Shown: one piece after another, positions 15,734-25,570 of the stretch | Layout: each line of letters begins with the position of its first letter | Position numbering within the stretch: position 1 is the stretch's first letter | Virus record (IMG/VR): IMGVR_UViG_3300007538_000162 | Coordinates: 1-25,570 of that record | Length of the DNA stretch: 25,570 nt | Source: a virus | Direction: 5' to 3' (one strand) | Notes under the pieces: model-generated | What the model was told of the DNA's origin: nothing | Database searches by the model: none | Seen by the model: only the letters and a program-made list of their open reading frames with translations | Made by a program: the position numbers and the translations under genes

Positions 15734-16831
15734 TTACTCGACGGTGCCCGAGAAGCCGACGACGCCGAGGCGCGAGAGCGACCCGGTGGCGAGGAAGCCG
15801 CTGAAGGCGTAGTTCCACTGCATCGCGGCCATCTGGTGGCCGAGGTCGTACGGCCCCTCCAGCACGAAGTCGTGGTCGGGGAGCACGCACAGGTGCAGGC
15901 CCACCGCCGACTTGAGGTTCCCCGCGATCATCGGGTTCTTGCCCGGGACCTCGAAGTGCTCCTTCTTCATGCTGAACTGGCCGTTGGTCGGCCGGCGCTT
16001 GCCGGTCGTGGTCAGGACGTAGGTGAGGCCCGAGCCCTCGAGTTCGGCCTCGAAGCAGACCGGGATGCCGCGGAACAGCAGGTTCTCGAAGCCCAGGTTG
16101 CCGAGGGTCAGGTCCTGGTCCTTCTGCGACGGCGCGACGTACTTGTCGTACAGCAGGTAGACGTCCTGGTCGGTCGTCATGATGTCGGGGCGGGAGCGCC
16201 CGCGCAGCGAGCACTGGAGCACGACCTCCGACCACTTCTCCTCGCCGTCCGTGTTGAACGTCGAGATCGTCGCCTGGCGCGAGCGCCACTTGGAGTAGGT
16301 CGAGCGGCTGATGCCGGCCGTGGTGGTCGTCTGCGACGCCTCCGCGGTGTTCGGGACGATGAGCCCGAGCGGCAGCATCTCGTTCGACGCCTGCGAGGCG
16401 GCGTACATCTGGCGCGCGATGTCGTTGCCGAGCGCCTCCTTCATGATCGCCATCTTGCTGTTCAGGAGCGAGACGACCTGCGCGCCGGTCTTGGCGTTCT
16501 TCGCCATCTCGTCCTTGGAGAGCAGGAAGTGCGCCCGGGTGCGGCCCTGGTGGGTCGCGTAGTCCCAGCGGGCCGTGTCCGGGCCGTCCTCGGGGGTCAC
16601 GCTGAACGTGCCGAACTCGCCGTGCGAGCCGACGTTCGCGCTGTCCGTGATGGCGACCGGGATGCGGTAGTCGGCGCCGGTGCCGCCGTACTTGACCGCG
16701 CCCTGCTGGTACATCCAGGCCAGGAGCGGGTTCGACTGCGACAGCTCGAAGCTGACTTCGGGGAGGATCTTCGGGGCCGTGGTCGAGAACACCCGGGTCA
16801 GCGGGAGGCTCGAAATCGTGTTCGCGGGCAT
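15734..16831 (-). CDS. Major capsid protein (HK97-fold type), 365 aa
   Basis: Position after the scaffold, size of 365 residues and an even acidic/hydrophobic composition identify this as the coat protein. An N-terminal segment with SFELSQSNPLLAWMYQQGAV is followed by a beta region (TGADYRIPVAITDSANV) and a long helix with TGAQVVSLLNSKMAIMKEAL (spine-helix candidate, near residues 118-137). A later stretch contains IMTTDQDVYLLYDKYV, the familiar coat motif in which a peptide is assigned and then aligned as T-D-x-x-x-Y, and then LGFENLLFRGIPVCFEAELE. A clear AAGGAG lies six bases before the ATG. No protease gene is visible nearby, so maturation may rely on scaffold exit without cleavage. The HK97 fold itself is inferred. 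Confidence 0.9.
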   Translation of the reverse strand: MPANTISSLPLTRVFSTTAPKILPEVSFELSQSNPLLAWMYQQGAVKYGGTGADYRIPVAITDSANVGSHGEFGTFSVTPEDGPDTARWDYATHQGRTRAHFLLSKDEMAKNAKTGAQVVSLLNSKMAIMKEALGNDIARQMYAASQASNEMLPLGLIVPNTAEASQTTTTAGISRSTYSKWRSRQATISTFNTDGEEKWSEVVLQCSLRGRSRPDIMTTDQDVYLLYDKYVAPSQKDQDLTLGNLGFENLLFRGIPVCFEAELEGSGLTYVLTTTGKRRPTNGQFSMKKEHFEVPGKNPMIAGNLKSAVGLHLCVLPDHDFVLEGPYDLGHQMAAMQWNYAFSGFLATGSLSRLGVVGFSGTVE

Positions 16832-22383: not shown

Positions 22384-22808
22384 CACGACGACGGCAGGCA
22401 ATCGCCCGTCCACACGTCCTTGCGCCAGGCAAGTACATGACGGTCCAGAGCCTCAGACGCATCCAGCAGCGCATCCGAGTACCCAGCCGCCACACCCAGG
22501 TCGTAGTCCGACAACGGCTCCGAAGCAGGAGTCACGTCCTCCAGCTCGTCCAGAACCGGACCCCACCACCCCGACCATTCCTCCTGGAGAGCCTCCGACA
22601 GCAGCACGGACGGCAGAACCCCAAGAGCCCGAGCGAACTCCACCAGCGTCGAAACAGACGGCTCGCACCGACCACGCTCCACGTCCGAGACGTACTGGCG
22701 GCTGCACGACAACCGCTCCCCCAGCTCAGCCATCGTCAGCCCCAGCGACTGCCGACGTGCGCGAACAAGGCGACCGAGACGACCGCGAACGCTGACCCGA
22801 GTGACCAT
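22383..22808 (-). CDS. XRE/Cro-C1-type transcriptional regulator, 141 aa
   Basis: Residues about 12-70 form a classical HTH_3 domain: GRLVRARRQSLGLTMAELGE is the first helix pair and SRQYVSDVERG (36-46) the recognition helix, followed by PSVSTLVEFARALGV. The C-terminal 70 residues are acidic and Trp-rich (EEWSGWWGPVLDELEDV) and may mediate oligomerisation. There is no Shine-Dalgarno before the ATG, but a perfect TTGACA and a TAGCCT lie so close that the transcript would begin at or next to the start codon, so a leaderless mRNA is likely. The regulator heads the virion operon and faces an array of inverted repeats in the divergent region. It may be a lysogeny repressor or an early-to-late switch. 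Confidence 0.88.
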   Translation of the reverse strand: MVTRVSVRGRLGRLVRARRQSLGLTMAELGERLSCSRQYVSDVERGRCEPSVSTLVEFARALGVLPSVLLSEALQEEWSGWWGPVLDELEDVTPASEPLSDYDLGVAAGYSDALLDASEALDRHVLAWRKDVWTGDCLPSS

Positions 22809-22814
22809 GCGGAG

Positions 22815-22842
22815 AGGCTACACCCACCATTACCGCTGTCAA
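22815..22842 (-). promoter_or_regulatory. Candidate promoter of the regulator (leaderless)
   Basis: Reading the minus strand, TTGACA (complement of 22837-22842) is a perfect -35 element. After 16 bases comes TAGCCT (complement of 22815-22820), which matches the three most conserved positions of a -10 element. Transcription would start about seven bases later, at about 22808, the A of the regulator start codon. The -35 box overlaps the CCGCTGT arm of the inverted repeat at 22833-22839, so a protein bound there would compete with polymerase. The -10 match is weak and a host-specific sigma factor is possible. Confidence 0.5.
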
Positions 22843-22886
22843 CCAATAACCGTCTCGCGCGTCTACCGACGGTTCTATTACAGCGG
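22833..22886. promoter_or_regulatory. Nested inverted repeat, candidate operator
   Basis: Two perfect 7-base inverted repeats are nested. The outer pair is CCGCTGT at 22833-22839 and ACAGCGG at 22880-22886. The inner pair is AACCGTC at 22848-22854 and GACGGTT at 22868-22874. The inner half-site recurs as ATAACCGTC at 22846-22854 and, identically, at 22942-22950. The outer left arm overlaps the candidate -35 box of the regulator, so autoregulation by the XRE protein is a reasonable inference. It could also be an RNA or replication-origin structure. Confidence 0.55.
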
Positions 22887-22941
22887 AAACAGCCCTGACA
22901 GCACCTAACTAGCCGTAACTGCTGCGGAAAAGTGTACGCGG

Positions 22942-22955
22942 ATAACCGTCACGGT
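22942..22955. promoter_or_regulatory. Palindromic third half-site, candidate operator
   Basis: ACCGT at 22946-22949 region and ACGGT at 22951-22955 form a perfect 5-1-5 palindrome centred on the C at 22950 (ACCGTCACGGT at 22945-22955). It contains the 9-base ATAACCGTC copy of the upstream operator half-site. Together with the nested repeat 60-100 bases to the left it makes a three-site cluster in the divergent control region, as expected for a cooperative phage repressor. No convincing plus-strand promoter was found over it. Confidence 0.45.
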
Positions 22956-23590
22956 GCTGTGGAATTTGGGGGCGGGGGGAGGGGTGATTGTAGCTAGTAC
23001 GCAGGAGTCCCTTCTTCCCCGGAGGTACCCCTACCCCGGGGGGTGTCGCCGCCGCCGTCCACGTCGGTCTGTCTCCTGGCCAGCGCCTGCCAGCCCACCT
23101 GAGGCCGTACCAGCCACGCCAGCCCGTCCTGCCACACACACCCACGTCGGCCCATGTCTCGGCATCCGCAGCCCGTCCCGCGCCGGCCCCTGCCCCCGCT
23201 CCCCGCGCTCGCTTCGCTCGCGCTCCGTGTCTCTGCTTCGGCTGGGCTGGACTCTCGCCGGTGCTGAGCCTGCGCGCGCTCGAGCTGCTGTCGCCGGTGC
23301 TTCAACCGTGCAAGCGACTGCGCGCGGGCTGGGGACGGCCTCTCGCGCGCCACCTGCTGACCGGGCTGGCACTGACACCGGCGCTGACACTAGGACGGTG
23401 GCGCATGCGAGCGCGGCTTGTGGAGGCGGCTGGATGGGTGGCGCACTCCCTCCCCCTCCTTCCTCCCCTACCCCTCGAGCGCCTTCCTCCCCCGCTCCAC
23501 CCACAAGAACCGCTAGACGTCGCCGTTGCGCGAAGATTCTTGAACTTCCCTGTAGACAGCCCGGGGAGTCTAGGGCATGCTTCTCTTATC

Positions 23591-23614
23591 AGCCCGATGG
23601 GACGGGCTGGGGAG
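23591..23614 (+). promoter_or_regulatory. Hairpin plus ribosome binding site before the 71-aa gene
   Basis: Arms AGCCCG (23591-23596) and CGGGCT (23603-23608) are perfectly complementary, with loop ATGGGA. A GGGGAG ribosome site follows at once (23609-23614), nine bases before the ATG. The loop ends in GGGA, the same four bases that form the loop in the other copies of this pre-start hairpin further right. It therefore looks like a slightly divergent first member of the series. Confidence 0.6.
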
Positions 23615-23623
23615 ACAGACACC

Positions 23624-23839
23624 ATGATCCGCGCCAGCGCAGCCACCCCCGCCGACCCCCGATACTCGCCGCGTCTCTGTTCGCTCTGCTTTCTCGGCAT
23701 CGACCACAGCGAGGCCGCGCATAACGCCGAGGTTTCTTACACCCGAAGAATCCACCTCGACGTCATCCTCGAGGACGCGATGGATCGTGGGGCGACCGCC
23801 GAGGAAGCGCAGCAGATCGCGGACCTCAACCGAACCTGA
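23624..23839 (+). CDS. Small protein with CxxC and His pair, 71 aa
   Basis: This is the first gene of the plus-strand array. The start at 23624 is supported by GGGGAG nine bases upstream and by a hairpin just before it. The protein has a short Ala/Pro-rich N-terminus and then C19-S-L-C22 with H28 and H33, a possible small zinc site. A helical C-terminal half follows, with HLDVILEDAMDRGATAEEAQ. I do not recognise a family. A small DNA- or protein-binding early protein is a fair guess from position next to the control region. An in-frame upstream extension exists but crosses low-complexity sequence and lacks a ribosome site. Confidence 0.72.
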   Translation: MIRASAATPADPRYSPRLCSLCFLGIDHSEAAHNAEVSYTRRIHLDVILEDAMDRGATAEEAQQIADLNRT

Positions 23840-23938
23840 CCAGTCGAAACCGCTTCGGCGGTCCGTCGGGATTGCTCGCCCGGCGCTGATGAGACAGAGC
23901 ACAAACGCCCTGGGAAGGGCACAACGGGAGATACGAAC
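23840..23938 (+). promoter_or_regulatory. Intergenic three-hairpin module, copy 1
   Basis: Hairpin I is ACCGC-TTCG-GCGGT at 23849-23862, a perfect stem on a UUCG tetraloop and shorter than in the other copies. Hairpin II is CGTCGGG (23864-23870) with CCCGGCG (23879-23885), seven pairs including one G-U, and an eight-base loop. Hairpin III is GCCCT-GGGA-AGGGC at 23907-23920, and GGGAG follows eight to thirteen bases before the ATG at 23939. There is no U-run after hairpin I. Order and spacing match the following four copies, although hairpin I here lacks the CCCTTG prefix. Confidence 0.65.
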
Positions 23939-24265
23939 ATGGAAACTGCTACCTTCCGCACTGGCAACCTCGTGGTCCGCACCCGGTTCAACGCCGATGA
24001 CACCTTCAGCGCGCGGATCTACATCGCCGGGGAGCCCTGCTGCGTTGCTCGCGTGGACTGCATGCGCCTGGCGCGCGGCTGGAGCAAGGCGATCGACTCG
24101 CGCGATGCGCACCGGGAAATGGCCAGCTCGGCGCTGTCCTTCGAGGGGGCTGGGCTGTGGTCGCCCGACGGCGACTGTGAGGCATACGAGCGACCGAGCA
24201 AGGTCGAAGACGCGGGCGGCTGGTACGACTCCGACGACTCCGGCGAGGTCATCTTCGCCCGCTGA
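23939..24265 (+). CDS. Small acidic protein, 108 aa
   Basis: The ATG at 23939 follows GGGAG at a good distance. The protein begins METATFRTGNLVVRTRFNAD and has a beta-rich first half with Cys pair CC near residue 34 and a further Cys near 41. A helical middle (CMRLARGWSKAIDSRDAHRE) and an acidic C-terminus with GGWYDSDDSGEVIF follow. No known family is recognised. Its acidity and size match the other small array genes, and its gene is bounded on both sides by the hairpin modules. An accessory, host-directed early role is inferred from this setting only. Confidence 0.75.
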   Translation: METATFRTGNLVVRTRFNADDTFSARIYIAGEPCCVARVDCMRLARGWSKAIDSRDAHREMASSALSFEGAGLWSPDGDCEAYERPSKVEDAGGWYDSDDSGEVIFAR

Positions 24266-24358
24266 TCATCCCTTGATGTCCTCGGGTTCGCTCGAGGTCA
24301 TCGGGGGCCGGATCGGCCCACAACAACAGCCCTGGGAAGGGCACATCGGGAGAATCAT
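24266..24358 (+). promoter_or_regulatory. Intergenic three-hairpin module, copy 2
   Basis: Hairpin I begins just after CCCTTG: arm 24275-24286 pairs with 24291-24302 over a TTCG loop, 12 positions with one G-U pair and one T-T mismatch. CGGGGG closes the arm. Hairpin II is GGGCCG (24305-24310) with CGGCCC (24314-24319), loop GAT. Hairpin III is GCCCT-GGGA-AGGGC at 24329-24342, followed by GGGAGA and the ATG at 24359. No poly-U tract follows hairpin I. Confidence 0.75.
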
Positions 24359-24610
24359 ATGTCCTACTTCTACTCCGACCCCAGCCGCGAAAGCGACCCT
24401 CACGCGCTCCCCGATGCCGAGGTCTTTTACGCCGATGCGGGCGACCTGGACGAGTGCTTCGGCCTGGGCGACGACGACGACGAGCCTTCGCCGGCAGGCT
24501 GGTACGCCTACGCCTGTTTCCCCGGTTGCCTGCCCGACGGCGATCCCTGCGGCCCATTCGACAGCGAGGCCGAAGCGATCGAGGAGTGGCGATCGATGTA
24601 CTGCGACTAG
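24359..24610 (+). CDS. Small acidic Cys-containing protein, 83 aa
   Basis: The ATG at 24359 is preceded by GGGAGA. The N-terminal 48 residues are strongly acidic with a DDDD run. The C-terminal half, GWYAYACFPGCLPDGDPCGP followed by FDSEAEAIEEWR, resembles a motif I know from small phage and plasmid-borne proteins of unknown function: G-W-x-x-x-x-C/x-x-P-G-C-L-P-D-G-x-P-x-G-P-F-x-[ST/D]-E-A-x-A. The recognition is by pattern only. It is flanked by two hairpin modules and so forms one of the cassettes of the array. Confidence 0.8.
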   Translation: MSYFYSDPSRESDPHALPDAEVFYADAGDLDECFGLGDDDDEPSPAGWYAYACFPGCLPDGDPCGPFDSEAEAIEEWRSMYCD

Positions 24611-24704
24611 GACTGAAGCGCCCTTGATGCCCTCGGGTTCGCGCTCGAGGGCATCGGGGGTCACTTCGGCCCATAACGGCCCTGGGAAGGGCAAGGGAGA
24701 GACG
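24611..24704 (+). promoter_or_regulatory. Intergenic three-hairpin module, copy 3
   Basis: After CCCTTG, hairpin I pairs 24626-24637 with 24644-24655 (12 pairs with one G-U, loop TTCGCG). It differs from copy 2 at the mismatched position, where T-T is replaced by C-G, so the stem is improved by two matching changes. Hairpin II is GGGTC (24658-24662) with GGCCC (24668-24672), including one U-G pair. Hairpin III is GCCCT-GGGA-AGGGC at 24679-24692, then AGGGAGA and the ATG at 24705. Confidence 0.75.
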
Positions 24705-25046
24705 ATGAGCAACGACGACTGGACCGAGCAGGCTTACTGGCGCGATGTGGCGAGCGCGGCCGATGACGCCGCCGAGAACGTCCGCGACCACGGTCAGGAC
24801 GCGAGCGAGGCGATCAACGAGGCCGCGGACGGTTCGGCGTGGGTGATCTACACCTTCCGCGCCAGCCAGACGATGACCTTCACGGACAACGCGGACGCCT
24901 TCGAGGAGTACGGCTTCACCTTCGAGGGCAAGAGCTGGGGTGAGATCGTGTCGATCTGCGCGGCGTGCGCCTTCGAGGCCGACGTGCGCGACTACTTCGG
25001 GCGCCACTACAACGAGGACACCGGGCGCAGCTTGGATGACGAGTAG
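24705..25046 (+). CDS. Small acidic protein of a widespread unknown family, 113 aa
   Basis: The start at 24705 is chosen because GGGAGA sits five bases before it and the hairpin module ends just upstream; the open frame extends leftwards only through the neighbouring genes. The protein is acidic with MSNDDWTEQAYWRDVASAAD, then the segment EAADGSAWVIYTFRASQTMT and an NADAFEEYGFTFEGK stretch, and an Ala-rich C-terminus. A segment of the form A-D-G-S-x-W-V-I-Y-x-x-x-A with a following D-A-x-E-E is familiar from small phage and mobile-element proteins of unknown function. No catalytic residues can be named. Confidence 0.82.
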   Translation: MSNDDWTEQAYWRDVASAADDAAENVRDHGQDASEAINEAADGSAWVIYTFRASQTMTFTDNADAFEEYGFTFEGKSWGEIVSICAACAFEADVRDYFGRHYNEDTGRSLDDE

Positions 25047-25148
25047 CGGATCCTGATCCCTTGAACCGTCCGGGGCTCGCGCTTCGGGCGGTTCGGGGGC
25101 CGCAGGGTCCACCACACAACGGCCGCGGGAGCGGCGACGGGAGAGAAA
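25047..25148 (+). promoter_or_regulatory. Intergenic three-hairpin module, copy 4
   Basis: After CCCTTG, hairpin I pairs 25063-25075 with 25082-25094: 13 pairs, three of them G-U, with loop CTCGCG. The stem sequence differs almost completely from copies 2 and 3 yet pairs fully. Hairpin II is GGGCC (25097-25101) with GGTCC (25106-25110), one G-U. Hairpin III is GCCGC-GGGA-GCGGC at 25122-25135, with both arms changed relative to copies 1-3 and the GGGA loop unchanged. CGGGAGAG precedes the ATG at 25149. Confidence 0.75.
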
Positions 25149-25451
25149 ATGCGCGACTTCTACACCTATTGGCTTTGCGACTGCTGCACTGTCATGGCCG
25201 TCAACGGCGACCCTTGCGAGTGCCACGACGGCGAACCACTCGATGCGTTCGTCCTGCCCGATGGGGCCTGTGGAGGCCTGGTCATCGATGACTGCCCGGC
25301 GTGCCACGGCGACGAGTGCGAGCGCGAGGACTGCGACCACGACGGCTACCAAAGCTTCTCGTGGAGCGGCTGCGACGGATGCGCCGAGAACGCCGACAAG
25401 GGGGGGGGCCTCCACCGCTTCGTCGTGTTCGTCAGCGGCGGCGAGTCCTGA
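25149..25451 (+). CDS. Cys-rich small protein, 100 aa
   Basis: The ATG at 25149 follows GGGAGAG. Twelve Cys occur in 100 residues: C10, C12, C13, C23, C25, C41, C49, C52, C57, C62, C75 and C78, suggesting two zinc-binding knuckles or a disulfide-rich fold. The N-terminal YWLCDCCTVMAVNGDPCEC and the later FSWSGCDGC resemble a motif of phage and plasmid proteins of unknown function, where C-x-x-C is followed by a basic G-x-H-R-F segment. Here a run of eight G residues (25401-25408) encodes most of the Gly stretch before LHRF. It is likely to be an accessory nucleic-acid or protein-binding protein. Confidence 0.8.
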   Translation: MRDFYTYWLCDCCTVMAVNGDPCECHDGEPLDAFVLPDGACGGLVIDDCPACHGDECEREDCDHDGYQSFSWSGCDGCAENADKGGGLHRFVVFVSGGES

Positions 25452-25546
25452 TCATCATCCCTTGCAGCCACCGGGGGGTCGCCCTTCGGTGGCTGCGGGG
25501 GCCGGATGGTCGGCCTTCAACGCCGCGGGAGCGGCAGGGAGAGAAC
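25452..25546 (+). promoter_or_regulatory. Intergenic three-hairpin module, copy 5
   Basis: After CCCTTG, hairpin I pairs 25464-25478 with 25482-25496: 15 pairs with two G-U and loop TCG. CGGGG follows. Hairpin II is GGCCG (25500-25504) with CGGCC (25511-25515). Hairpin III is GCCGC-GGGA-GCGGC at 25522-25535, as in copy 4, and AGGGAGAG precedes the ATG at 25547. Confidence 0.75.
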
Positions 25547-25570
25547 ATGCCCCGATACCCCTTCATCCTC
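25547..25570 (+). CDS. Start of a further plus-strand gene (partial)
   Basis: An ATG follows a GGGAGAG ribosome site and a full hairpin module, as for the other genes in the array. Eight codons are visible, MPRYPFIL, and the frame runs off the window. Nothing can be said about function. Its presence indicates that the cassette array continues to the right. Confidence 0.65.

Follow-up and report, generated by a model that had tools for sequence, protein, structure and literature searches.

A total of five gaps between consecutive small plus-strand genes were analyzed at the right end of the virus fragment IMGVR_UViG_3300007538_000162 (25,570 bases, G+C 0.68; this whole stretch is referred to as the window). 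Judged by its sequence, gap 1 contains a type II hammerhead ribozyme that is complete, with core, GUC site and pseudoknot. Each of gaps 2-5 holds a single long irregular hairpin composed of a lower stem (P1), a fixed 2x3 internal loop and an upper stem (P2). The hammerhead and the irregular stems occupy the same slot, in the order stop codon, element, hairpin III and GGGAG. Overall, our analysis suggests that the gap elements are most likely mRNA processing signals that yield single-gene mRNAs.

The minus strand of the record carries the head module, with a terminase, an SU10-like portal and a major head protein. The major head protein (15734-16831) resembles those of Myxococcus phages Mx8/Mx9 and Stenotrophomonas phage BUCT555 at 23-25% identity, and the portal weakly matched a Manatee Spring podovirus. 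The small plus-strand genes are listed below; the sixth is cut off by the record end.

23624-23839, plus strand, gene 1 (71 aa)
23939-24265, plus strand, gene 2 (108 aa)
24359-24610, plus strand, gene 3 (83 aa, net charge -20)
24705-25046, plus strand, gene 4 (113 aa, net charge -19)
25149-25451, plus strand, gene 5 (100 aa, net charge -17)
25549-25570, plus strand, gene 6, start only (truncated by the record end)

Third-position G+C of 0.79-0.94 in these genes supports their being coding. No Pfam or PHROG match worth naming was found for genes 2-5, and gene 4 showed a weak match to Vibrio phage D63. The products of genes 3, 4 and 5 (24359-25451) are small, strongly acidic and without named relatives, and are candidates for decoy or counter-defence proteins. 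A run of nine G at 25400-25408 within gene 5 is a possible assembly error or slippage site, and the C-terminal part of gene 5 is therefore uncertain.

Analysis of the gene leaders revealed hairpin III, a 5-bp stem with a GGGA loop (AUGGGA at gene 1) and with GGGAG a few bases downstream, at the following positions.

23592-23607, plus strand, hairpin III-like leader of gene 1 (GCCCG-AUGGGA-CGGGC, then GGGGAG and the ATG at 23624)
23907-23920, plus strand, hairpin III of gap 1 (GCCCU-GGGA-AGGGC)
24329-24342, plus strand, hairpin III of gap 2
24679-24692, plus strand, hairpin III of gap 3
25122-25135, plus strand, hairpin III of gap 4 (GCCGC-GGGA-GCGGC)
25522-25535, plus strand, hairpin III of gap 5

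The stem occurs in three versions and pairing is kept in each. The original prediction placed hairpin III before GGGAG in all five gaps, and our analysis bears this out and adds the leader of gene 1. Since hairpin III thus precedes 6/6 genes, the unit consists of a cutting or separating element, hairpin III, the ribosome site and the gene. A further weak hairpin lies just 5' of the gene 1 leader hairpin, at about 23544-23569.

The element preceding hairpin III in gap 1 is the following.

23841-23903, plus strand, type II hammerhead ribozyme (RF02276), cleavage predicted after C23863

Analysis with cmscan identified RF02276 at 23842-23903 (43.6 bits, E 5e-6; gathering score 37), and no other Rfam family reached its gathering score in the window. 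Base-by-base reading gave a stem I of 7 bp, a stem II of CAGUC/GACAG with one A-A mismatch followed by GAAA, and a stem III of ACCGC-UUCG-GCGGU, together with a GUC triplet at 23861-23863 and CUGAUGA at 23886-23892. All three core elements of a hammerhead (CUGANGA, GAAA and NUH) are therefore present, with stems I and III closed and stem II open. Loop I (UGCUC, 23873-23877) can pair with the tail (GAGCA, 23897-23901) in a pseudoknot of 5 bp, which is supportive rather than proof because 6% of loop and tail shuffles also gave a 5-bp match. A loop I/tail pseudoknot has been described for the majority of type II hammerheads (PMC3088659). A type II hammerhead was also observed in a sampled genome from the order of a Rhizobium strain (L180:9525-9590), where it closely follows a stop codon and is itself followed by a GGGGAG site and an ATG; owing to this similar placement, the placement in gap 1 is not unique. 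An int-alpA RNA (RF02996) scored slightly over the gathering score in an unrelated viral contig (L189:359-430).

RF02276 was absent from gaps 2-5 at E values up to 10, the hammerhead core was not found there, and no known Rfam ribozyme class fitted these gaps at E up to 10. The elements identified in gaps 2-5 are listed below.

24261-24317, plus strand, irregular stem of gap 2 (P1 24261-24267/24311-24317, 2x3 loop, P2 24270-24307)
24610-24672, plus strand, irregular stem of gap 3 (P1 24613-24618/24664-24669, plus 2 bp past a mismatch; P2 24621-24660)
25048-25110, plus strand, irregular stem of gap 4 (P1 25048-25055/25103-25110, P2 25058-25099)
25448-25513, plus strand, irregular stem of gap 5 (P1 25448-25456/25505-25513, P2 25459-25501)

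P1 measures 7, 6, 8 and 9 bp in gaps 2-5 and is joined to P2 by a 5' linker of 2 nt and a 3' linker of 3 nt; P2 follows the layout CCCUUG-N7-CG...CG-N7-CGGGGG. The stop codon of the preceding gene lies inside P1 in gaps 2 and 5 and immediately upstream of P1 in gaps 3 and 4. The pattern CCCTTG-N7-CGGG-N(2-12)-CG-N7-CGGGGG occurs at four places in the window, namely gaps 2-5, and at none in 100 shuffles. P1 forms in a common register in all four copies, which 0 of 20,000 shuffles matched, and unrelated registers gave at most 5 pairs per copy. When each element was folded alone, the minimum free energy structure consisted of P1, the internal loop and P2 in 4/4 cases (z -4.5 to -7.1), with one additional pair spanning the internal loop in gap 3. 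Among 17,006 overlapping 63-mers from both strands of the record, a fold of at least 6 bp, a 2x3 loop and at least 8 bp was found only at gaps 2, 4 and 5.

Pairing was analyzed on equal-length trimmed segments, aligned without gaps and with the apical loop replaced by AAAA, since MAFFT alone misaligned gap 4. Across the four copies, which are paralogues from one genome, 97.7% of cells in the 22 consensus pairs were paired and both sides were changed in 11 of the 22 pairs; none of 500 shuffles reached the observed values, and the paired cells dropped to 33-52% in slid registers. Divergent sequence with preserved pairing, the central argument of the original prediction, is hence upheld, as are the hairpins of copies 2-5 framed by CCCTTG and CGGGGG, whose arms differ and still pair. 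Other parts of the prediction need revision. Its hairpin I is real but is the upper part of a longer stem closed by P1 and not a separate hairpin. Its four fully changed arm sets do keep their pairing, but the arms of gaps 2 and 3 are nearly identical and the gap 2 arm has one T-T mismatch, leaving about three independent arm sequences, not four. An identical three-hairpin module in all five gaps was not found, gap 1 having the hammerhead in place of hairpins I and II.

Hairpin II, the remaining member of the predicted module, proved to be a foldable alternative and not part of the module. In this fold the last G residues of CGGGGG and the following CC pair with the 3' strand of P1, so that it competes with P1, and it is 8-14 kcal/mol less stable. 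Hairpin II forms in gaps 2, 4 and 5 when the 5' flank is forced to be single-stranded (24263-24317, 25048-25110 and 25448-25513), and in gap 2 also when the segment begins at the stop codon, which shortens P1. A ribosome on the stop codon might keep the 5' flank single-stranded and lead to hairpin II, a refolding that could couple processing to the termination of translation. Hairpin II may be such a switch, or equally a by-product of the high G+C content.

The conserved bases of the element in gaps 2-5 are concentrated around the internal loop. Three U.G pairs are invariant, two in CCCUUG/CGGGGG and one as the fifth pair of P1. Because these pairs never vary, the covariance model scored the sense strand far higher (57-65 bits) than the reverse complement (17-24 bits), and this strand asymmetry favours a sense-strand RNA over a DNA cruciform or operator. 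Selection on RNA structure in gaps 2-5 is thus well supported.

Searches for relatives returned near-identical sequences of the same phage. A terminase search revealed two IMG/VR contigs 99.8-99.9% identical to the window; one of them (L005) covers gaps 1-3 with zero differences there and so adds no covariation. The homologue search with gene 4 found the same contig only, and patterns for hairpin III with the ribosome site found the same phage only, besides chance and low-complexity matches. For patterns of the element in viral and genome collections, the other matches among those listed were without the pairing or the flanking layout. Covariance model R1 gave only weak matches in the fetched loci and in a sample of about 580 genomes, and the score of its best match was inflated by the AAAA placeholder loop of the model. 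No diverged homologue of the element in gaps 2-5 was found by protein, DNA-pattern or covariance-model searches among the matches listed and the genomes sampled, which leaves absence unproved.

Taking these results together, we judge the chances to be somewhat better than even that the plus-strand genes form one transcript that is cut by the hammerhead in gap 1 and by an RNase III-type enzyme in gaps 2-5. Beyond the hammerhead match and the structures, pairing and strand of the stems, which are shown, we infer that the genes are co-transcribed and that the elements are cleaved, as well as the enzyme involved, the position of the cut and a stabilising role. Transcribed together, the small plus-strand genes would give a message that is cut at each gap. 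The gap 1 hammerhead would cleave itself after C23863, and the gene 1 mRNA would then end in the UUCG-capped hairpin of stem III and the gene 2 mRNA start in stem I. The cut in gaps 2-5 would be made by an endonuclease, most likely RNase III of the host, on or close to the 3' side of the internal loop. The upstream mRNA would then keep P2 as a hairpin cap at its 3' end, and the downstream mRNA would carry a short leader containing hairpin III. This GGGA-loop hairpin may thus be the common 5' leader hairpin of each single-gene mRNA, standing before the ribosome site. That the first slot is filled by a ribozyme suggests a cutting function for the slot, and the gap 1 hammerhead lends independent support to cutting in these gaps. 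A T7-like RNase III role, as originally predicted, is the best explanation for gaps 2-5 but does not extend to gap 1, where the hammerhead had been overlooked. In T7, R1.1 has an asymmetric internal loop of 4/5 nt, and cutting at site a converts a 60-nt RNA into 47 + 13 nt (PMC6121014). The hairpin thus probably stays with the upstream piece, and by analogy cuts on the 3' side in gaps 2-5 would cap the upstream mRNAs with P2, much as stem III of the hammerhead would.

It is possible, but improbable, that the stems of gaps 2-5 are not cut at all and act as end protectors against 3' exonucleases or as partial terminators without a U tract, giving each gene its own mRNA end. Their stability is in keeping with such a role, as gaps 4, 5 and 3 rank 1, 2 and 4 among the 70-nt windows of the record, and termination without a U tract has been proposed for some G+C-rich bacteria. 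However, no terminator-like site (a G+C-rich stem followed by a U run) was found on the plus strand in 22800-25570, and a terminator in each gap would require a promoter for each gene, whereas no promoter-like site was found in the same interval. An invariant internal loop, the U.G pairs and the length of the stem would be superfluous for a simple block, and the hammerhead of gap 1 points to cutting.

Neither the invariant CCCUUG/CGGGGG nor the U.G pair of P1 is required for cutting by RNase III, and a sequence-specific partner is therefore possible. We are more doubtful of the wider proposal that the stems are sites for an RNA-binding protein of phage or host, or for a sequence-specific endonuclease other than RNase III, that controls the cluster together, with hairpin III perhaps bound by a CsrA-like protein. 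The invariance of these bases would fit such a protein, as would the variable segment, which stays constant at 7 bp, and the GGGA that is invariant in the hairpin III loop of six leaders, next to GGGAG. Against this, the ribosome site lies outside all these hairpins. CsrA sites prefer ANGGA hexaloops, of which there is at most one here, before gene 1, and GGGA is also an ordinary GNRA tetraloop.

Sharing a slot with a hammerhead also raises the thought that P1, the 2x3 loop and P2 form a small self-cleaving ribozyme of a new class, replacing the hammerhead in gaps 2-5; we consider this quite unlikely. Association with hammerheads guided earlier ribozyme searches (PMC10085705), and the lack of a fitting Rfam ribozyme class and the gathering of conserved bases at the internal loop agree with this idea. 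Yet the loop has just five unpaired bases, no pseudoknot was seen by eye, and nearly all the invariant bases sit in ordinary pairs; moreover, ten other ribozyme-associated motifs were tested in an earlier survey and none cleaved (PMC10085705). Finally, it is very improbable that the repeats are DNA elements, such as promoters or operators that carry inverted repeats, comparable to the ESAS in cluster K mycobacteriophages, since despite a similar position upstream of small non-structural genes the arms vary while pairing stays, which a DNA-binding protein would not require, the U.G pairs make the strands unequal, no -35/-10-like sites were found in 22800-25570, and mRNA hairpins were little supported for ESAS according to the cluster K authors, the opposite of the case here. 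We also set aside integron attC sites, CRISPR-repeat mimics and permuted hammerheads, as inspection showed none of their conserved sequences.

SAS and ESAS are repeated start-associated elements of cluster K mycobacteriophages and cluster EF Microbacterium phages (PMC3203893, PMC7302621). Like them, the units described here place an upstream repeat and then a conserved ribosome-site motif before many small non-structural genes, and inverted repeats are shared with the cluster K ESAS. Unlike SAS and ESAS, which conserve sequence (those of cluster K with promoter-like hexamers and SigA-like promoters), the gaps conserve pairing while much of their sequence varies. No 13-bp GGGATAGGAGCCC-type motif was found in the gaps, and the 17-bp repeats of cluster K are conserved in sequence whereas the arms here vary.

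Comparison of gaps 2-5 with phage T7 revealed a closer likeness. The early genes of T7 are separated by RNase III sites, such sites between phage genes are known, and to call insulated one-gene cassettes undescribed, as the original prediction did, is too strong. When folded in the same way, the T7 early gaps show a lower stem, an asymmetric loop and an upper stem, an architecture also found in gaps 2-5. The best folds of 0.7-1 and 1-1.1 had a 2/3 loop, and two further gaps formed one at a cost of at most 1 kcal/mol, but the 1.2-1.3 gap did not show it near its best fold. R1.1 was folded here with a 2/3 loop as against the published 4/5, our fold counting one C-G pair inside the loop; relative to the published loop, gaps 2-5 differ in having a 2/3 loop. 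The stems of gaps 2-5 resemble T7 sites as irregular intergenic hairpins, repeated between small genes, with an asymmetric loop that is longer on the 3' side. They differ in showing no sequence similarity, in an upper stem of 16-20 bp (about 9-13 bp in the T7 folds) and in neighbouring a ribozyme. AAGGUC...GGCCUU, which surrounds the loop in T7, was absent from gaps 2-5 when the sequences were read beside the T7 sites. If the stems are indeed processed, P1, the 2x3 loop and P2 would constitute a compact structural signature with which to look for processing signals in G+C-rich phages.

The claim of novelty for one-gene cassettes is also tempered by clustered hammerheads that flank single prophage genes, published in 2011, for which single-gene mRNAs were proposed (Perreault et al. 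2011, PMC3088659). Cleavage was demonstrated in vitro for several of these hammerheads, and in vivo for one set (PMC3088659). Gap 1 resembles these clusters in being an RF02276 member between small phage genes. The clusters repeat hammerheads, whereas here one hammerhead and four unrelated stems share the same slot; in mainly open-access literature, no paper was found that describes equivalent slots occupied by a hammerhead and by repeated stems of RNase III-like type. If the proposed processing is right, one phage operon uses two ways of cutting mRNA, by RNA alone and probably by protein, at equivalent positions with the same downstream leader. Such an operon would lend itself to comparison when asking which function phage hammerheads serve in clusters: if a nuclease site can fill the slot of a hammerhead, the job of the hammerhead there would simply be to separate neighbouring mRNAs.
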